The notes under the pieces are model-generated. The model saw nothing but the letters and a program-made list of their open reading frames with translations, searched no databases and was not told the DNA's origin. 38,823 bases of DNA from a virus, in IMG/VR virus record IMGVR_UViG_3300048817_000012, positions 1 to 38,823 of that record; one strand, 5' to 3'. Shown here in pieces: positions 2,806 through 7,316 of this stretch; positions within the stretch are counted from its first letter, which is position 1; each line of letters opens with the position of its first letter. Position numbers and translations under genes: made by a program.

Positions 2806-3056
2806 GGGGACCCCCGAATGTCATGTCGAAGAATACCCCGAAAACGGGCATAGTTCGACACGGTGCGGGGGGACGCAAGGATCGGTTTATCACCAGCCTG
2901 ACCCCACGTCAATCGTGAAACGTCTCCGTTGACACGACCATAGATGCCGTGCCATAAAACTCAAATGCCTGCCGAGACCCCTCGGGGTTTAATCGCGACG
3001 GATAAGGGCATTGAAGGGGGCTCCCGGTCGCTGCGTCGGGGGCCTCTTTCTCATTT
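2806..3056 (-). other. gap between tRNA array and lysis genes
   Basis: No convincing gene. A GC-rich hairpin (about 3017-3042) just after the last tRNA of the array could end the tRNA transcript, but it lacks a good T-run on the minus strand. A TTGACA at about 2925-2930 is on the plus strand and points the wrong way for all genes. The promoter for the lysis genes, if separate, is not obvious. Confidence 0.4.
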
Positions 3057-3131
3057 TGGCGGGAGAGGTAGGGATCGAACCCACGACGCGCGGCTTTGGA
3101 GACCGCCGCTCTACCACTGAGCTACACTCCC
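3057..3131 (-). tRNA. tRNA-Trp (CCA)
   Basis: Cloverleaf with 7-nt anticodon loop CTCCAAA, T-loop TTCGATC, G73 and encoded CCA. Acceptor stem has one T-T mismatch (position 6-67). Last tRNA of the array in transcription order. Confidence 0.95.
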
Positions 3132-3135
3132 GTGT

Positions 3136-3210
3136 TGGTACTACCGTGCAGAGTCGAACTGCAAAGACGCCGGTTCACAGCCGGGCCGCCTAACCGTCAG
3201 CATCGGTAGC
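3136..3210 (-). tRNA. tRNA-His (GTG), alphaproteobacterial type
   Basis: Anticodon loop CTGTGAA. G1 pairs with T72 as a wobble, the discriminator is A73 and the base before G1 is C, so no G-1 is encoded. Most bacteria have G-1 and C73; many alphaproteobacteria have A73 without G-1. This supports an alphaproteobacterial host. CCA is encoded. Position 8 is A rather than T. Confidence 0.93.
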
Positions 3211-3217
3211 GTAAAGT

Positions 3218-3294
3218 TGGTGCCGGTGCGAGGCATCGAACCCCGGACCTTCCGCGTATGAAACGGACGCTCTGGCCGACTGAGCTACACCGGC
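3218..3294 (-). tRNA. tRNA with CAT anticodon (Met-like elongator)
   Basis: Fully paired acceptor (G1-C72), anticodon loop TTCATAC, A73 and encoded CCA. G1-C72 argues against initiator tRNA. Elongator Met is most likely; tRNA-Ile2, whose C34 becomes lysidine, cannot be excluded. One of three CAT genes in the array. Confidence 0.9.
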
Positions 3295-3298
3295 AAAT

Positions 3299-3373
3299 TG
3301 GCGGGGGCAATAGGGATCGAACCTACGCGTGCGGGAGTCAAAGGCCCGTGCCTTACCTCTTGGCTATGCCCCT
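3299..3373 (-). tRNA. tRNA-Gln (TTG)
   Basis: Anticodon loop CTTTGAC, G73 and encoded CCA. Counting back from T8-A9 puts A1 opposite C72, an unpaired end like the weak 1-72 pair favoured by GlnRS. Six other acceptor pairs are intact. Confidence 0.92.
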
Positions 3374-3378
3374 TTATT

Positions 3379-3453
3379 TGGTGCCTCCGGCCGGTTCCGA
3401 CCCGGCTTTACCCGCTTGAAAGGCGGGCCTCCTAGCCACTAGAGGACGGAGGC
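3379..3453 (-). tRNA. tRNA-Glu (TTC)
   Basis: Anticodon stem CCCGC/GCGGG around loop CTTTCAA, G1-C72, A73, encoded CCA. 5 nt from the preceding tRNA-Gln. Confidence 0.95.
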
Positions 3454-3459
3454 GTTGAT

Positions 3460-3533
3460 TGGAGCGGGCACGGAGGATCGAACTCCGATCTTTCGCTTGG
3501 AAGGCGTTGGCTCTACCGTTGAGCTATGCCCGC
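3460..3533 (-). tRNA. tRNA-Gly (TCC)
   Basis: Loop CTTCCAA, perfect acceptor GCGGGCA/TGCCCGC, U73 as usual for tRNA-Gly, encoded CCA. Confidence 0.95.
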
Positions 3534-3544
3534 GTGATATGAAA

Positions 3545-3573
3545 CGTCGGGTATGATCGTGTTATGCCCGACG
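3545..3573. repeat. spacer hairpin between tRNA-Ser and tRNA-Gly
   Basis: Inverted repeat with 10 bp arms (one G-T pair) and a 9 nt loop, filling one of the few long spacers in the array. Possibly a processing signal or weak terminator; no T-run follows on the minus strand. Confidence 0.6.
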
Positions 3574-3576
3574 AAT

Positions 3577-3664
3577 TGGCGGAGAGTGGAGGGATCGAAC
3601 CTCCGCATCGCTTGCGCGATGTATAGGGTAGCAGCCTACTGCCTTGCCGCTCGGCCAACTCTCC
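3577..3664 (-). tRNA. tRNA-Ser (GCT)
   Basis: Class II tRNA with a long variable arm (stem around GCGCAAGC), loop CTGCTAC, G73 and encoded CCA. Reads AGC and AGT codons. Confidence 0.95.
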
Positions 3665-3711
3665 ATGCGCGCTCGCGTATAAAGATCACATATGCGTGGT
3701 CGCGTATATTT

Positions 3712-3788
3712 TGGTGCTCCCGGGAGGAGTCGGACCCCCGACGACCCGGCTTAGAAGTCCGGCGCTCTGTCCGCTGAGCTACGGGAGC
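3712..3788 (-). tRNA. tRNA-Arg (TCT)
   Basis: Loop CTTCTAA in a CCGGA/GCCGG stem, perfect acceptor, encoded CCA. It reads AGA and AGG, usually rare in GC-rich hosts. The 47 nt spacer after tRNA-Ser(GCT) repeats CGCGTAT. Confidence 0.95.
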
Positions 3789-3792
3789 AAAT

Positions 3793-3858
3793 TGGAGACG
3801 ACGGGGTGAGTCGAACGGGTTTGCAGCCCGCTGCCTGTTACCGTTCGGCCACGTCGTC
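3793..3858 (-). tRNA. tRNA-Cys (GCA), shortened, lacks half of the T-arm
   Basis: Only 66 nt with CCA. Acceptor GACGACG/CGTCGTC, D-arm, anticodon stem GCGGG/CCCGT with loop CTGCAAA, and U73 (a Cys identity element) are intact. Between the anticodon stem and the acceptor only 11 nt remain instead of about 22: the variable loop and the 5' strand of the T-stem are gone, although TTCGACT survives. It may be a decayed gene or a tRNA working without a normal T-arm. Confidence 0.8.
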
Positions 3859-3866
3859 ATAGGAAT

Positions 3867-3940
3867 TGGCTGGCCCTCAAGGACTTGAACCTCGATCAGC
3901 GGAGTCAGAGTCCGCCGTCCTACCATTGAACGAAGGGCCA
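3867..3940 (-). tRNA. tRNA-Gln (CTG)
   Basis: Loop CTCTGAC, stem GCGGA/TCCGC, weak U1-A72 end pair and G73 as expected for GlnRS, encoded CCA. Confidence 0.95.
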
Positions 3941-3942
3941 AT

Positions 3943-4018
3943 TGGTGAACCCGAGAGGGGTCGAACCTCTAACCGCCCGGTTCGTAGCCGGGTGCTCTTT
4001 CCATTGAGCTACGGGTCC
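3943..4018 (-). tRNA. tRNA-Arg (ACG)
   Basis: Loop CTACGAA, stem CCGGC/CCGGG region, A34 expected to become inosine through the host TadA. A73 and encoded CCA. Only 2 nt from the preceding tRNA-Gln. Confidence 0.95.
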
Positions 4019-4020
4019 GT

Positions 4021-4097
4021 TGGCGCGGCGAGGGAGATTTGAACTCCCGTTACCCGCGTGAGAAGCGGGCTTCCTGACCATGCTAGAAGATCGCCGC
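4021..4097 (-). tRNA. tRNA-Glu (CTC)
   Basis: Stem CCCGC/GCGGG around loop TTCTCAC, perfect acceptor, G73, encoded CCA. Second tRNA-Glu, reading GAG. Confidence 0.94.
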
Positions 4098-4104
4098 GTG
4101 GAAA

Positions 4105-4180
4105 TGGCTGGCAAGGCAGGGATCGAACCTGCGAACCTCCGGTTAACAGCCGGGTCGAATTACCACTCTCGCACTTGCCA
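4105..4180 (-). tRNA. tRNA-Asn (GTT)
   Basis: Loop CTGTTAA, U1-A72 pair, G73, T-loop TTCGATC, encoded CCA. Confidence 0.95.
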
Positions 4181-4189
4181 ATAAAAGAT

Positions 4190-4265
4190 TGGTGGACCTG
4201 CGGGGACTCGAACCCCGACTGCACGGTATGCAAAACCGGCGTGCTCCCGTTATCACTACAGGCCC
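4190..4265 (-). tRNA. tRNA-Ala (TGC)
   Basis: Loop TTTGCAT, A73, encoded CCA. The acceptor has a G3-T70 wobble pair, the main AlaRS identity element, which confirms the assignment. Confidence 0.95.
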
Positions 4266-4269
4266 GTAT

Positions 4270-4345
4270 TGGTGGCAAGGGGAGGACTTGAACCTCCGAC
4301 GCCGGGCTTTTCAGACCCGCGCTCTACCATCTGAGCTACCTCGCC
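4270..4345 (-). tRNA. tRNA-Phe (GAA)
   Basis: Loop CTGAAAA, acceptor with two G-T or A-T variants only, A73 and encoded CCA. Confidence 0.95.
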
Positions 4346-4371
4346 GTAACCTGAAACCTAAAAACGTCAAA

Positions 4372-4445
4372 TGGCGCGGATGCCGGGAATTGAACCCGGG
4401 CCTCATGAGTGGCACTCACGAACTCGACCGTCAAGCTACATCCGC
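4372..4445 (-). tRNA. tRNA-Gly (GCC)
   Basis: Loop GTGCCAC, stem CGTGA/TCATG, perfect acceptor, encoded CCA. The discriminator is G, whereas bacterial tRNA-Gly usually has U73. Confidence 0.9.
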
Positions 4446-4449
4446 GTGT

Positions 4450-4486
4450 GAGTTATAGATTTTCAGCGTTGAGTTATAGGTTTTCA
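4450..4486. repeat. short tandem repeat in tRNA spacer
   Basis: Two 16 nt units (4450-4465 and 4471-4486) that differ at one base, spaced 21 nt apart, fill the 42 nt spacer before tRNA-Gly. AT-rich compared with the flanking tRNAs. Confidence 0.7.
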
Positions 4487-4487
4487 T

Positions 4488-4573
4488 TGGTGGAGAAGGC
4501 AGGACTCGAACCTGCGAAGGCGTTAGCCGCCGGATTTACAGTCCGGCCCCTTTGCCACTCGGGCCACTTCTCC
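4488..4573 (-). tRNA. tRNA-Tyr (GTA)
   Basis: Class II tRNA with long variable arm, loop CTGTAAA, A73, encoded CCA. Its first bases GGAG directly follow the AACAAC spacer seen elsewhere in the array. Confidence 0.95.
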
Positions 4574-4578
4574 GTTGT

Positions 4579-4663
4579 TGGTTGCGCGAGCGCGGATTTG
4601 CACCGGCGTCGGCAGCTTATGAGGCTGCATAGGGGCTTGGTTACCTACTCCTACTATCGCGCA
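4579..4663 (-). tRNA. atypical tRNA with CAT anticodon and enlarged D region
   Basis: The 7 bp acceptor TGCGCGA/TCGCGCA, anticodon stem GCAGC/GCTGC with loop CTCATAA, A73 and CCA are clear. The stretch between acceptor and anticodon stem is 28 nt instead of about 19, and can fold as GTAGG/CCTAT with a 16 nt loop. The T-stem has a bulged C and the T-loop begins TG rather than TT. It could be Met or Ile2, or a decayed gene. Confidence 0.7.
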
Positions 4664-4666
4664 AAG

Positions 4667-4759
4667 TGGAGGAAGGGGAGTGGATTTGAACCCTCGAAAC
4701 GCTTTCACGTTTACTGGTTTTCGGGACCAGCGCCTTAAGCCTGACTCGGCCACCCTTCC
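4667..4759 (-). tRNA. tRNA-Ser (CGA), several unusual bases
   Basis: Class II tRNA with long variable arm and CTGGT/ACCAG anticodon stem. The loop is CCCGAAA, so the almost invariant U33 is C. The discriminator is U rather than the G73 usual for Ser, and the T-stem has a bulged A. Acceptor GGAAGGG/CCCTTCC is perfect and CCA is encoded. Function is uncertain. Confidence 0.8.
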
Positions 4760-4832
4760 GTAATTGCGCAGTTTTGTTTAGGACTTTCGTCGGCGGATGG
4801 TCTGCAACACCCGACCGGGACCCCCGGCTATT

Positions 4833-4907
4833 TGGCGTTCCCGGGGTGAGTTGAACACCCGCCTCCCGCTTCGGAGGCGGGTGATCTATCCATTAAACTA
4901 CGGGAAC
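4833..4907 (-). tRNA. tRNA-Arg (CCG)
   Basis: Loop CTCCGAA in stem CCCGC/GCGGG, G73, encoded CCA. Its nucleotides 8-10 (TAG) are the stop codon of the upstream RusA-like gene. A 73 nt spacer without recognisable features separates it from tRNA-Ser(CGA). Confidence 0.95.
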
Positions 4908-5221
4908 ATAATTCCTATCTTCTCAAGAAAAACAATCTGTCGGTCGTCCTTCAACAACGTCGGACCTTTGCCGGTCTTGCCATCGAGCGCCTGAAACAGC
5001 GCGGTGACGAGGTTGTCAAGATCGGGTCCGGTCGGGTCGATGAACAACGCCGACAACGAAATTTGATGCGACATCTGTTCGAGGCCCGCTTCTTGAGCCG
5101 CGCGCCAAATCTCGACGCGGTATTGTTCAAGCACCTTGCGGTGGATGCGCCGATGCGGCGCGCCACGCACATTAGCGATCAAGAGACGCCGACGATGGTC
5201 GTACTGCAACTGCACGCGCAT
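4898..5221 (-). CDS. RusA-like Holliday junction resolvase inside the tRNA array
   Basis: The 107-residue protein matches the small RusA family (about 120 residues), dimeric nucleases that cut Holliday junctions and branched DNA during replication or packaging. The acidic motif D67-L-D69-N70 and the D92-D93-x-x-I motif near the C-terminus fit the metal-binding site; the usual Lys after DxDN is replaced by Thr73. The ATG at 5221 has GGAG 9 nt upstream, just after the CCA of the previous tRNA. The stop codon TAG lies inside the following tRNA-Arg and equals its nucleotides 8-10. Family call is good; activity not certain given the missing Lys. Confidence 0.75.
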   Translation of the reverse strand: MRVQLQYDHRRRLLIANVRGAPHRRIHRKVLEQYRVEIWRAAQEAGLEQMSHQISLSALFIDPTGPDLDNLVTALFQALDGKTGKGPTLLKDDRQIVFLEKIGIMFP

Positions 5222-5239
5222 TATCACGCACTCCGTTGT

Positions 5240-5314
5240 TGGTGGTCCCGGCAGGACTTGAACCCGCAACCCGGCCGTTATGAGCGGCTGGCTCTACCAT
5301 TGAGCTACGAGACC
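5240..5314 (-). tRNA. tRNA with CAT anticodon (Ile2- or Met-like)
   Basis: Loop CTCATAA, stem GCCG/CGGC, G1-C72, A73, encoded CCA. The variable and T-arm region resembles bacterial tRNA-Ile2 more than elongator Met, but this is a visual comparison. If Ile2, host TilS would have to make lysidine at C34. Confidence 0.88.
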
Positions 5315-5326
5315 CGCAAGAGGAAT

Positions 5327-5404
5327 TGGTCGGGGCGGCAGGATTTGAACCTGCGTCCTCCTCGTTCCGAACGAGGCCGTCTGACCGGGCTGGCTTACGC
5401 CCCG
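5327..5404 (-). tRNA. tRNA-Pro (CGG)
   Basis: Loop TTCGGAA in stem CCTCG/CGAGG, C1-G72 end pair typical of bacterial tRNA-Pro, A73, encoded CCA. Confidence 0.95.
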
Positions 5405-5407
5405 AAA

Positions 5408-5437
5408 GTTATACTCATTTTGCGGATTGAGTATAAC
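5408..5437. repeat. perfect hairpin between nuclease gene and tRNA-Pro
   Basis: Two perfect 10 bp arms (GTTATACTCA / TGAGTATAAC) around a 10 nt loop, AT-rich, lying just before the 5' end of tRNA-Pro and after the nuclease gene stop. Could be a processing site or the trace of an insertion boundary. Confidence 0.65.
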
Positions 5438-5471
5438 CAGAATTGGCGCGACTGGCGGGTGCTGACCCGAA

Positions 5472-5885
5472 TTACCACTCGTATCCGCCTGCGAACCAAC
5501 AATCCTTTTTCTGGCCATTCTTTGCTGGCGTCAGGCGCAACGAGATTTCAGTTTTCCCGCCCCACGTATACGGCGGGAGCCTGTAGACTTTGCCGGTTTG
5601 CGGCAAGTAAACCATGACGCAATCAACTTCAAGCGGGCTGTATTTTCGTTGACCGCCGCGTCTATGGTTCGTTTGAGTTTTTACGCGAACCGATCCGTTA
5701 CTCGCCGGTTTTCCATCCGCGTATTTTACTTGCACACGCGAGAGCTTCCCGCCCTCGTCGATGATTAAATCGTACCGATCAAAATCACCGACTGGCCGAC
5801 TTACAGTGATCCGTTTTTCAAATGCACGGAAGATGACTTTCATCAAGGCTAACTCGCCTTTGAGACTGGTTTCGGACACTGGCAT
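5472..5885 (-). CDS. PD-(D/E)XK nuclease, homing-endonuclease-like
   Basis: The 137-residue protein has the small PD-(D/E)XK layout of the family that includes the intron-encoded I-Ssp6803I: E11 in the first helix, D39 in DRYDLII, then Q52-V-K54 in a beta strand, followed by basic residues likely to touch DNA. It sits between tRNA-Asp and tRNA-Pro, and I-Ssp6803I is also known from a tRNA gene. The ATG at 5885 follows the CCA of tRNA-Asp by 2 nt; the Shine-Dalgarno AGGAG, 7 nt upstream, is the acceptor stem of that tRNA, so tRNA maturation would cut it off. Substrate unknown; a defence or decay role is possible. Confidence 0.75.
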   Translation of the reverse strand: MPVSETSLKGELALMKVIFRAFEKRITVSRPVGDFDRYDLIIDEGGKLSRVQVKYADGKPASNGSVRVKTQTNHRRGGQRKYSPLEVDCVMVYLPQTGKVYRLPPYTWGGKTEISLRLTPAKNGQKKDCWFAGGYEW

Positions 5886-5887
5886 TT

Positions 5888-5961
5888 TGGCGCTCCTAGG
5901 GAGAATTGAACTCCCGTTCTCCGCTCGACAGGCGGGCATTCTACCATTAAATTATAGGAGC
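5888..5961 (-). tRNA. tRNA-Asp (GTC)
   Basis: Loop CTGTCGA, perfect acceptor GCTCCTA/TAGGAGC, G73, encoded CCA. The 3' acceptor strand doubles as the ribosome site of the nuclease gene. Confidence 0.95.
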
Positions 5962-5987
5962 CTCAAGAGTGAGCTACAGCCGCAATT

Positions 5988-6071
5988 TGGTGCGAACAAG
6001 GGGACTCGAACCCCTAACCCTTGCGGGCAACGCTTCTCAGGCGTTTGCGTAAACCATTCCGCCATGTTCGC
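5988..6071 (-). tRNA. tRNA-Leu (GAG)
   Basis: Class II with long variable arm, stem AACGC/GCGTT and loop CTGAGAA, A73, encoded CCA. Confidence 0.95.
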
Positions 6072-6076
6072 ATTGT

Positions 6077-6152
6077 TGGTGGGCACTCGGGGGATCGAAC
6101 CCCGGACGTTCGGATTAAGAGTCCGACACTCTACCAACTGAGTTAAGTGCCC
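6077..6152 (-). tRNA. tRNA-Lys (CTT)
   Basis: Loop CTCTTAA, perfect acceptor GGGCACT/AGTGCCC, A73, encoded CCA. Nucleotides 8-10 (TAA) form the stop codon of the upstream small gene. No TTT tRNA-Lys is present. Confidence 0.95.
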
Positions 6153-6355
6153 GGGAAGAAGTGCTCCATGATGACGGTCATGGCGCTGAAAGTGTCCTCG
6201 ACCTTGCGTACCTGCTCCCCGAGACCGGCATCCGGGGGAGGAGGAAATGGTGAACCTGTGTGGTACTGCCCCACTTGCGGACGGGTTAAAAGGCCGTTGC
6301 CGAACTTCTCTGGCTTTACGCTACAGGTCCGGCATCGTTTGAGTGGATCGCTCAT
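6143..6355 (-). CDS. small unknown protein inside the tRNA array
   Basis: The 70-residue product has one CxxC near the N-terminus, a Pro-rich middle (FPPPP) and a hydrophobic C-terminal stretch. The ATG has GGAG 8 nt upstream and overlaps the stop of the preceding small gene (ATGA), so the two are translationally coupled. The stop TAA is nucleotides 8-10 of tRNA-Lys. The codons for the CxxC contain 12 bases (6320-6331) identical to the 5' end of tRNA-Ile (6657-6668), perhaps a tRNA remnant. No family recognised. Confidence 0.6.
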   Translation of the reverse strand: MSDPLKRCRTCSVKPEKFGNGLLTRPQVGQYHTGSPFPPPPDAGLGEQVRKVEDTFSAMTVIMEHFFPGT

Positions 6356-6576
6356 TTTGTTTGCTCCGTTGTTTGGTGGACCAGTGAGGAATTGAACCTC
6401 CATGCGGGCCCCGTCGAGCCTTCGCCGCGCGCTATTTGATCCAACGCGCTGTTGATCTGCCCGCATATTTCTTCCGCCGTGGCCCGGCGCGTGCCGGGGG
6501 ATATGTGGAAGTTGCGGGTGCGCCGGTTCGGGTCATCAAACAAGCGCGCCATCAGTTTCTCTTGCTCGGGTCCCAT
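6352..6576 (-). CDS. small unknown protein whose C-terminus is encoded by a tRNA fragment
   Basis: The 74-residue protein has a charged, probably helical body. Residues of about 58-68 are encoded by a 30 bp copy of the tRNA-Ile 3' end, read through in frame. The ATG at 6576 is preferred because AGGAG lies 7 nt before it; another ATG at 6582 is too close to that site. The gene begins 17 nt after the CCA of tRNA-Ile and ends in an ATGA overlap with the next gene. No function can be assigned. Confidence 0.6.
   Translation of the reverse strand: MGPEQEKLMARLFDDPNRRTRNFHISPGTRRATAEEICGQINSALDQIARGEGSTGPAWRFNSSLVHQTTEQTK
6374..6403 (-). repeat. duplicated 3' end of tRNA-Ile
   Basis: Thirty bases identical to 6594-6623, the CCA, acceptor and T-arm part of tRNA-Ile(GAT). 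The remainder of a tRNA is missing. The two copies are direct repeats 220 bp apart, the pattern left when an element enters at a tRNA 3' end. Confidence 0.85.
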
Positions 6577-6593
6577 GTTCATTCTCCTGTTGT

Positions 6594-6667
6594 TGGTGGA
6601 CCAGTGAGGAATTGAACCTCCATCGAGCGGTTATCAGCCGCTTGCTCTACCGTTGAGCTACAGGTCC
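6594..6667 (-). tRNA. tRNA-Ile (GAT)
   Basis: Loop CTGATAA with GCGG/CCGC stem, perfect acceptor GGACCTG/CTGGTCC apart from one wobble, A73, encoded CCA. Its 3' 30 bases are repeated at 6374-6403. Confidence 0.95.
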
Positions 6668-6672
6668 GTGAT

Positions 6673-6747
6673 TGGTGGGTCGTCGATGAATTGAACATCG
6701 GACATCCGCCATGTCAAAGCGGCGCTCTACCACTGAGCTAACGACCC
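6673..6747 (-). tRNA. tRNA-Val (GAC)
   Basis: Loop TTGACAT in stem CCGCT/GGCGG, perfect acceptor GGGTCGT/ACGACCC, A73, encoded CCA. Confidence 0.93.
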
Positions 6748-6753
6748 GTAAAA

Positions 6754-6828
6754 TGGTAGGCGCGGGGAATTTTGAAATCCCGACATCCGGTATGTAAAAC
6801 CGGCGCTCTGCCTCTGAGCTACGCGCCT
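6754..6828 (-). tRNA. tRNA-Val (TAC)
   Basis: Loop TTTACAT in stem CCGGT/ACCGG, acceptor AGGCGCG/CGCGCCT, A73, encoded CCA. An 81 nt spacer without recognised features lies upstream. Confidence 0.94.
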
Positions 6829-6909
6829 ATAGGACCACACGACTGCACACAAGTGGGTCCCCGTCCGCTCGCCTACCTGTGCCGGTTACGAGCCGCGACG
6901 TTTTCGATT

Positions 6910-6987
6910 TGGTGCCCAAGGCAGGACTCGAACCTGCATGTGAGCCGCTTTTGAGGCGGCGGCCTTTACCAGTTTGGCTACAAGGGC
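6910..6987 (-). tRNA. tRNA with Leu anticodon CAA but short variable loop
   Basis: Stem GCCGC/GCGGC around loop CTCAAAA gives anticodon CAA (Leu, TTG codon). The variable loop is only 6 nt, whereas tRNA-Leu is normally class II with a long arm, as in the GAG and CAG genes nearby. The acceptor has one T-T mismatch. A73 and CCA present. Which synthetase charges it is unclear. Confidence 0.82.
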
Positions 6988-6994
6988 GTTTGTT

Positions 6995-7081
6995 TGGTGC
7001 GCGTGGCAGGACTTGAACCCGCACGGGAGTTTACCCCGACGCATTCTGAGTGCGTTATGTCTACCGTTCCATCACACGCGC
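6995..7081 (-). tRNA. tRNA-Leu (CAG)
   Basis: Class II with long variable arm, stem ACGCA/TGCGT and loop CTCAGAA, perfect acceptor GCGCGTG/CACGCGC, A73, encoded CCA. Starts 1 nt after tRNA-Thr(GGT). Confidence 0.95.
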
Positions 7082-7082
7082 G

Positions 7083-7154
7083 TGCCGCTAGGGTGAGTCG
7101 AACACCCGACATCTTCCGTACCAAGGAAGCGGTCTACCACTGGCCTATAGCGGC
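7083..7154 (-). tRNA. tRNA-Thr (GGT), CCA not encoded
   Basis: Stem CTTCC/GGAAG around loop TTGGTAC, perfect acceptor GCCGCTA/TAGCGGC and A73. The next base is followed at once by the 5' end of tRNA-Leu, so no CCA is encoded; it is the only tRNA of the 33 that must get CCA from the host enzyme. Confidence 0.93.
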
Positions 7155-7159
7155 GTAGT

Positions 7160-7234
7160 TGGTGCTCGGTGGAGGGATCGAACCCCCGCATCCTCGTTAC
7201 AAATGAGGCGTTCTACCACTGAAACTAACCGAGC
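7160..7234 (-). tRNA. tRNA-Thr (TGT)
   Basis: Loop TTTGTAA, acceptor GCTCGGT/ACCGAGC perfect, A73, encoded CCA. The top pair of the anticodon loop (31-39) is an A-C mismatch. Confidence 0.93.
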
Positions 7235-7240
7235 GAAATT

Positions 7241-7316
7241 TGGTGCCGATGCGAGGGCTTGAACCCCGGGCCTCCTGAGTACGAAACAGGCGCTCTACCA
7301 TCTGAGCTACATCGGC
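7241..7316 (-). tRNA. tRNA-Thr (CGT), first of the array
   Basis: Loop TTCGTAC in stem CCTGT/TCAGG (one T-T mismatch), perfect acceptor GCCGATG/CATCGGC, A73, encoded CCA. First tRNA in transcription order. Confidence 0.93.

Follow-up and report, generated by a model that had tools for sequence, protein, structure and literature searches.

The window analysed here, meaning the whole stretch of DNA under study, is an entire IMG/VR virus record (IMGVR_UViG_3300048817_000012; 38,823 bases). Positions 3057-7316 of the window hold an array of 31 tRNAs identified with ARAGORN, every one of which is encoded on the minus strand. Four open reading frames (ORFs) are wedged between these tRNAs, namely a RusA-like gene, a gene encoding a PD-(D/E)XK nuclease, and two short ORFs of 70 and 76 codons. 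Two additional minus-strand sequences within the array resemble tRNAs and were left uncalled by ARAGORN. The first, at 4579-4660, exhibits 86.7% identity over nucleotides (nt) 31-74 to a tRNA-Met(cat) of a related viral locus (L004) and is probably a degraded or unusual tRNA, while the second, at 3795-3866, is similar to tRNA-Cys and carries the anticodon GCA. The array may comprise 32-33 tRNA-like units in total.

The RusA-like gene (107 codons; 4898-5221, minus strand) is situated between tRNA-Met(cat) upstream (5240-5314, minus strand; ARAGORN) and tRNA-Arg(ccg) downstream (4833-4907, minus strand; ARAGORN and Rfam). Its predicted product ends in GIMFP, and the last two codons together with the stop fall within tRNA-Arg, which begins GTTCCCG-TAG. 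The first-pass annotation of this DNA had equated the TAG stop (4900-4898) with nt 8-10 of the tRNA, and the coordinates of the ARAGORN tRNA and the ORF bear this out. It was equally right to equate the TAA stop (6145-6143) of the 70-codon ORF (6143-6355, minus strand, with its start at 6355) with nt 8-10 of tRNA-Lys(ctt) (6077-6152, minus strand; ARAGORN), which begins GGGCACT-TAA. The RusA-like gene is conserved across nine loci. Its tentative family assignment derives from a match to PHROG 140 (E 0.0013) and from a Pfam RusA score of 13.3 bits against a cut-off of 22.8, with all four members matching weakly, and rusA was listed in the PDB search only at E 0.39.

Relatives of the RusA-like gene in other viral contigs always have tRNA-Arg(ccg) directly downstream where the contig extends far enough. 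The position of their stop varies with respect to this tRNA. It lies at nt 8-10 in L003 and L004 (76% and 69% identity, respectively), both of which belong to the same clade as the window, and also in L138 and L139. The stop is found immediately 5' of the tRNA in L136 and in L135, a sister of L138 and L139, and 19 nt ahead of it in L005. By parsimony, this distribution suggests that the overlap between the RusA-like gene and tRNA-Arg was acquired at least two times independently. As the protein from L005, which lacks the overlap, and that from the window, which has it, terminate at about the same residue, we conclude that the tRNA stop replaced a native stop and that the protein was not extended.

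A stop triplet occupies nt 8-10 in 22 of the 31 tRNAs in the window, which means that any frame entering in the right register ends there, and in 57% of the 1265 tRNAs of our first locus set. Two such ends in one array are unremarkable, since about 0.24 per gene are expected under a random frame. Given how often this triplet is a stop, spurious ORFs in GC-rich arrays could end at nt 8-10 by chance alone, and both the frequency of short ORFs in the tRNA array region of the window and the 70-codon ORF, for which no relatives were found in phage records or viral contigs, are in keeping with this. Codon usage, the one support for that ORF, suggests that it is coding (0.175 in-frame, compared with -0.18 and -0.35 off-frame). 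Conservation of the RusA-like gene, however, refutes chance as the explanation for its own end, and known nuclease families likewise end at nt 8-10. Furthermore, dinucleotide-shuffled gaps yielded 0.18 ORFs of at least 80 amino acids (aa) ending at nt 8-10 as opposed to the nine found in an earlier set of 558 gaps, which indicates that these are real gene ends. We regard chance as a poor explanation overall, with little probability left to it.

We surveyed the ends of genes in tRNA arrays using loci gathered by three tRNA-pair patterns, by relatedness to the RusA-like and nuclease genes, and from annotated isolates. tRNAs were called with ARAGORN, and the longest ORF with a Shine-Dalgarno (SD) motif was taken from each tRNA-to-tRNA gap, which gave 411 loci with 4075 tRNAs, 932 gaps and 105 ORFs of at least 80 aa. 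The dominant pattern amongst these ORFs is tight packing with the stop just upstream of a tRNA, as 45 of the 105 (43%) end at positions -12 to -3, no more than 12 nt ahead of it. Positions 8-10 are the commonest site of a stop inside a tRNA (12 of 105, or about 11%); a further 15 ORFs end elsewhere in or touching a tRNA and six run through one. We then compared ends at nt 8-10 with a random-frame expectation of one third multiplied by the presence of a stop at these nucleotides. For overlapping genes of at least 80 aa, 12 such ends were observed across all loci compared to 5.7 expected (p=0.005), and seven compared to 4.0 when counted per homology cluster (p=0.09). Amongst loci chosen independently of the gene families in the window, there were four compared to 2.3 at a threshold of 80 aa (p=0.19) and nine compared to 6.0 at 45 aa (p=0.13). 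The suggestion that stops at nt 8-10 follow a general rule is therefore weak, as the excess across all loci shrinks when counted per cluster and is not significant in the independently chosen loci.

The related idea that the conserved U8-A9-(G10) of tRNAs provides a ready-made stop has fared better. The RusA-like genes acquired such an end at least twice, unrelated array genes (HNH and PD-(D/E)XK nucleases, amongst others) likewise end at nt 8-10, and the number of such ends is far above that of ORFs in shuffled gaps. These data point to a ready-made stop that has been used repeatedly, while selection for a stop at nt 8-10 is not established. We infer that most of these stops reflect neutral compaction. 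Protein genes in phage tRNA arrays would be squeezed against the next tRNA, and a gene that loses both its spacer and its native stop, and whose frame happens to fit, would be closed by the conserved U8-A9-(G/A)10. We found no relevant description of stop codons inside tRNAs in the open-access literature. Annotation procedures that forbid overlap between coding sequences and tRNAs may lose or trim genes that end in this manner.

The nuclease gene (5472-5885, minus strand) is in contact with a tRNA at its other end. Its ATG (5885-5883) lies 3 nt from the 3' end of a tRNA-Asp, and an AGGAG that may serve as its ribosome site is present at 5897-5893 on the minus strand, 7 nt from the ATG. As had been proposed, this motif belongs to the acceptor stem of the tRNA, where it forms part of the 3' strand TAGGAGC. 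The arrangement has few parallels, as the SD core started inside the upstream tRNA in only four of 83 array ORFs, a count that led us to reject the borrowing of ribosome sites as a common practice among array genes.

The first-pass annotation had also proposed that tRNA and protein production compete on one transcript, and a regulatory switch of this kind would require that selection placed both stops and ribosome sites in tRNAs, such that excision of a tRNA is set against translation. Cleavage by RNase P at nt 1 of tRNA-Arg would strip the RusA-like mRNA of its last two codons and stop, and 3' maturation of tRNA-Asp would leave the nuclease mRNA beginning two bases before its ATG. Based on established tRNA processing, each transcript is predicted to give rise to either a tRNA or a normally terminated protein. 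Same-strand packing of the array makes co-transcription likely, the overlap has been kept in L003, L004, L138 and L139, and the short distance between the nuclease ATG and tRNA-Asp would fit a switch as well. The same RusA-like gene works without the overlap in L005, L135 and L136, however, and two survey results also count against a switch, namely that ends at nt 8-10 show no significant excess over a random frame in the independently chosen loci and that SD cores starting in upstream tRNAs are rare. We consider a regulatory switch unlikely. Genes with a stop in a tRNA would nonetheless offer a clean test case for competition between tRNA maturation and translation.

The product of the nuclease gene scores 92 bits against PF11645 (E 3.9e-26; cut-off 26.1). 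Its Pfam matches comprised only PDDEXK_5 and one insignificant family, and no GIY-YIG domain was found amongst them. The only credible solved relative is PDB 2ost, which matches a profile of nine member nucleases with an E of 5e-22 and aligns at the catalytic positions (D ... QxK), where D38, Q51 and K53 are invariant in the nine relatives. The 2ost structure is that of I-Ssp6803I, a homing endonuclease whose gene resides in the group I intron of Synechocystis tRNA-fMet. One reference of PMC3943268 names I-Ssp6803I as a homing endonuclease of the PD-(D/E)XK class. A group I intron was matched neither in the array of the window nor in the relatives of the nuclease, and we rejected an intron-encoded arrangement on these grounds.

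The tRNA-Asp(gtc) adjoining the nuclease (5888-5961, minus strand; ARAGORN and Rfam) is complete, is the only tRNA-Asp in the window, and is unlike the tRNA-Asp of L003. L003 exhibits the same order of tRNAs without the nuclease, and its tRNA-Asp reads GCGGCTGTAGCTCA...GGGTCAGCACCCGCCAGTCGCGCCA. Both ends of this tRNA have counterparts in the window on the minus strand. A 5' remnant corresponding to nt 1-14, GCGGCTGTAGCTCA, matches at 5970-5983, and a 3' remnant corresponding to nt 51-75 is identical at 25 of 25 positions (5444-5468; E 6e-9), with the ancestral tRNA-Asp inferred from L003, a relative at 76% by the RusA-like protein and not a near-identical genome. The order in the window comprises the 14-nt 5' remnant, the complete and divergent tRNA-Asp, the nuclease gene, and the 25-nt 3' remnant. 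From this order, which the first-pass annotation had overlooked, the nuclease gene looks like it sits within the remains of an older tRNA-Asp together with a replacement tRNA. The start of the nuclease would be fused to the end of tRNA-Asp because the two form a single cassette placed in those remains. The 5' remnant is short at 14 nt, and this counts against the cassette reading.

An outline similar to that of the nuclease cassette, lacking a recognisable nuclease, is seen at the 76-codon ORF (6352-6582, minus strand). The last 15 or so codons of this ORF, for which a search for homologues found none, traverse a remnant of tRNA-Ile, and its TGA stop and the ATG start of the 70-codon ORF share bases as ATGA. 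The remnant (6374-6403, minus strand) duplicates the 3' 30 nt of the tRNA-Ile at 6594-6667, and is identical to nt 45-74 of that tRNA at 30 of 30 positions. We rejected an 11-nt sequence, GGACCTGTAGC, which is shared by the tRNA-Ile 5' end and the 70-codon ORF, as a corresponding 5' remnant, since matches of at least 11 nt turned up in about 20% of the shuffled controls. A second copy of a tRNA 3' half beside an insert is also the classic trace of integrase-type attachment at tRNA 3' ends, and the tRNA-Ile duplication bears it. The nuclease inserts, however, are large enough for the nuclease ORF only (approximately 0.4-0.5 kb) and have no integrase, 5' as well as 3' tRNA pieces occur, and the points of insertion vary from the anticodon in Enterococcus phage EFP01 to the D arm and T arm in others. 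Attachment of this type is the least probable of the explanations considered here, and we give it very little weight.

Relatives of the nuclease were identified using a three-member profile, as the full set of nine nucleases was too diverse for the scan. At least one tRNA was present in the fetched locus for 33 of the 36 relatives, and about half end between -14 and +19 of a downstream tRNA. tRNA pieces beside the nuclease matched on the sense strand in 15 query regions and on the antisense strand in two, with a few of the 15 being degraded whole tRNAs or lying some distance off. The cassette architecture recurs in relatives from both archaeal and bacterial viruses, and several of these could be compared with an allele lacking the nuclease at the same site (HSTV-4 with HRTV-21, EFP01 with phage 163, SelmaRatti with JLBYU43, and PM10 with dinky), so that the presence and absence alleles described here belong to relatives and not to the window itself.

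The clearest case is that of the Halorubrum viruses HSTV-4 and HRTV-21, which are 98.4% identical across their aligned flanks. The tRNA-Asn of HRTV-21 is intact and represents the empty allele, whereas that of HSTV-4 carries 16 changes, 14 of which fall in the anticodon arm and variable region. The HSTV-4 nuclease begins 1-2 nt after this tRNA and is followed by the 3' end of the former tRNA, in a copy identical to the empty allele. When Salmonella phage PM10 is compared with dinky, the tRNA-Asn before the PM10 nuclease has exactly four changes, which make up two compensated anticodon-stem pairs (28-42 and 31-39). The nuclease of EFP01 splits a tRNA-Asn directly after its GTT anticodon, while the tRNA-Asn of phage 163 is intact; no rescue tRNA was found in the stretch of EFP01 that was fetched, which counts against the cassette reading. 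Amongst carrier alleles, the anticodon arm is recoded in HSTV-4 and PM10 and the tRNA has been exchanged in the window, such that these alleles may lack the putative target sequence. What sequence comparison shows is the cassette architecture itself, alleles with and without the nuclease, and the recoding of anticodon arms.

Two further comparisons conform to this picture in part or not at all. In the T5-like phage SelmaRatti, a repeat of the first 15 nt of tRNA-Ser precedes the nuclease and a complete tRNA-Ser follows it, the latter being changed in its 5' and anticodon half compared to relatives and hardly at all in its 3' half. This arrangement supports the cassette reading, but the 5' repeat matches the new tRNA and not the old one, which counts against it. 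A counter-example is Kahlid, which carries the nuclease while its tRNA is unchanged compared to that of Vetrix. This case would be expected if ordinary phage recombination had replaced the tRNA next to a nuclease that is a passenger without a role; phage arrays are mosaic, and foreign tRNAs can enter via homologous recombination between conserved tRNA ends. Against such recombination, the change between the near-identical genomes of HSTV-4 and HRTV-21 is confined to the tRNA that touches the nuclease, pieces of old tRNAs flank the nuclease in unrelated viruses, and the nuclease family is that of a homing enzyme. We think it improbable that the nuclease is a mere passenger.

Taken together, we favour a two-part reading, to which we assign a probability of roughly 0.7: the gene ends are mostly the product of compaction closed by a tRNA stop, and the nuclease belongs to an I-Ssp6803I-type homing cassette without an intron. 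The nuclease would cut near the anticodon region of a tRNA gene. A carrier would then serve as the repair template, through which the nuclease is copied in along with a divergent tRNA, or tRNA half, of the same specificity. Entry of the cassette would restore the tRNA, destroy the target and leave fragments of the former tRNA lying to the outside, such that the target is lost and tRNA function is kept because the carrier copy brings both nuclease and tRNA. Cutting by the nuclease, resistance of the recoded tRNA, and homing or transfer are putative steps that we infer from these alleles. Such cassettes, combined with deletion, would be expected to leave genes whose ends are pressed into the 5' end of a tRNA. 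The broader proposal, that widespread intron-less homing elements in bacterial and archaeal viruses cut tRNA genes at the anticodon region and carry a recoded, cut-resistant replacement tRNA, and so constitute a natural cut-and-rescue drive, is in our judgement an even bet.

The viral nucleases resemble I-Ssp6803I in their family and in having as their probable target a tRNA gene near its anticodon. Unlike I-Ssp6803I, which has a self-splicing intron, the viral nuclease gene has no intron around it and brings a replacement tRNA or tRNA half, and the viral nucleases affect several tRNA isotypes. Fungal mitochondrial homing endonuclease genes, such as that in Allomyces atp6, supply the invaded gene with a new 3' end. 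There too the invader replaces the displaced part of a gene and the old part is left behind, but the target is a mitochondrial protein gene, whereas here it is tRNA genes of bacterial and archaeal viruses that are concerned. Overlaps between coding sequences and tRNAs occur in compact genomes such as mitochondria, where a coding sequence likewise ends inside the following tRNA; in our case, by contrast, the stop is formed by the U8-A9-G10 of a tRNA from a phage array.

That phage tRNA regions can harbour free-standing homing nucleases is already known from SegB, according to passages in PMC13096335 and PMC6409571. A passage of PMC13096335 citing Brok-Volchanskaya 2008 describes SegB of T4/T6 as a GIY-YIG homing endonuclease that is free-standing and encoded in the tRNA region; the same source states that SegB promotes the inheritance or amplification of tRNA genes, and reports that the 5' end of the tRNA shares microhomology with the 3' end of segB. 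The nuclease described here is similarly free-standing in a phage tRNA array, but has a PD-(D/E)XK instead of a GIY-YIG fold and, unlike SegB, splits one tRNA that a recoded copy would restore. Homing by a PD-(D/E)XK nuclease from within a tRNA intron is already known, but we found no intron-less PD-(D/E)XK member accompanied by a replacement tRNA in the open-access literature. The interest lies mainly in this combination and not in the stop codons. If the favoured reading is true, it would explain how phage tRNA arrays turn over so fast and how small genes come to be wedged between their tRNAs, and it would represent a natural counterpart of engineered cut-and-rescue drives. Such a drive, if real, would spread without costing its host the tRNA and would keep rewriting viral tRNA arrays.

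Some of the surveyed loci exhibit additional features. In EFP01 (L011), a ROOL RNA (Rfam RF03087, 264.8 bits) is located at positions 2912-3498 of the locus, approximately 500 nt downstream of the tRNA-Asn-splitting nuclease gene. Klebsiella phage K54_rec1 (L008, 80052-84429) contains 11 tRNAs that are without annotation in its GenBank record, along with an HNH-type ORF and a 51-codon ORF that both end at tRNA nt 8-10, the tRNA in the case of the HNH-type ORF being tRNA-Lys. Several PF11645 nucleases amongst L399, L402, L405, L406, L408 and L008 lie directly before a tRNA-Tyr, those of L406 and L408 running into it, and others sit before tRNA-Asn or tRNA-Asp. These differing tRNA neighbours hint at subfamilies of the nuclease with different tRNA targets.
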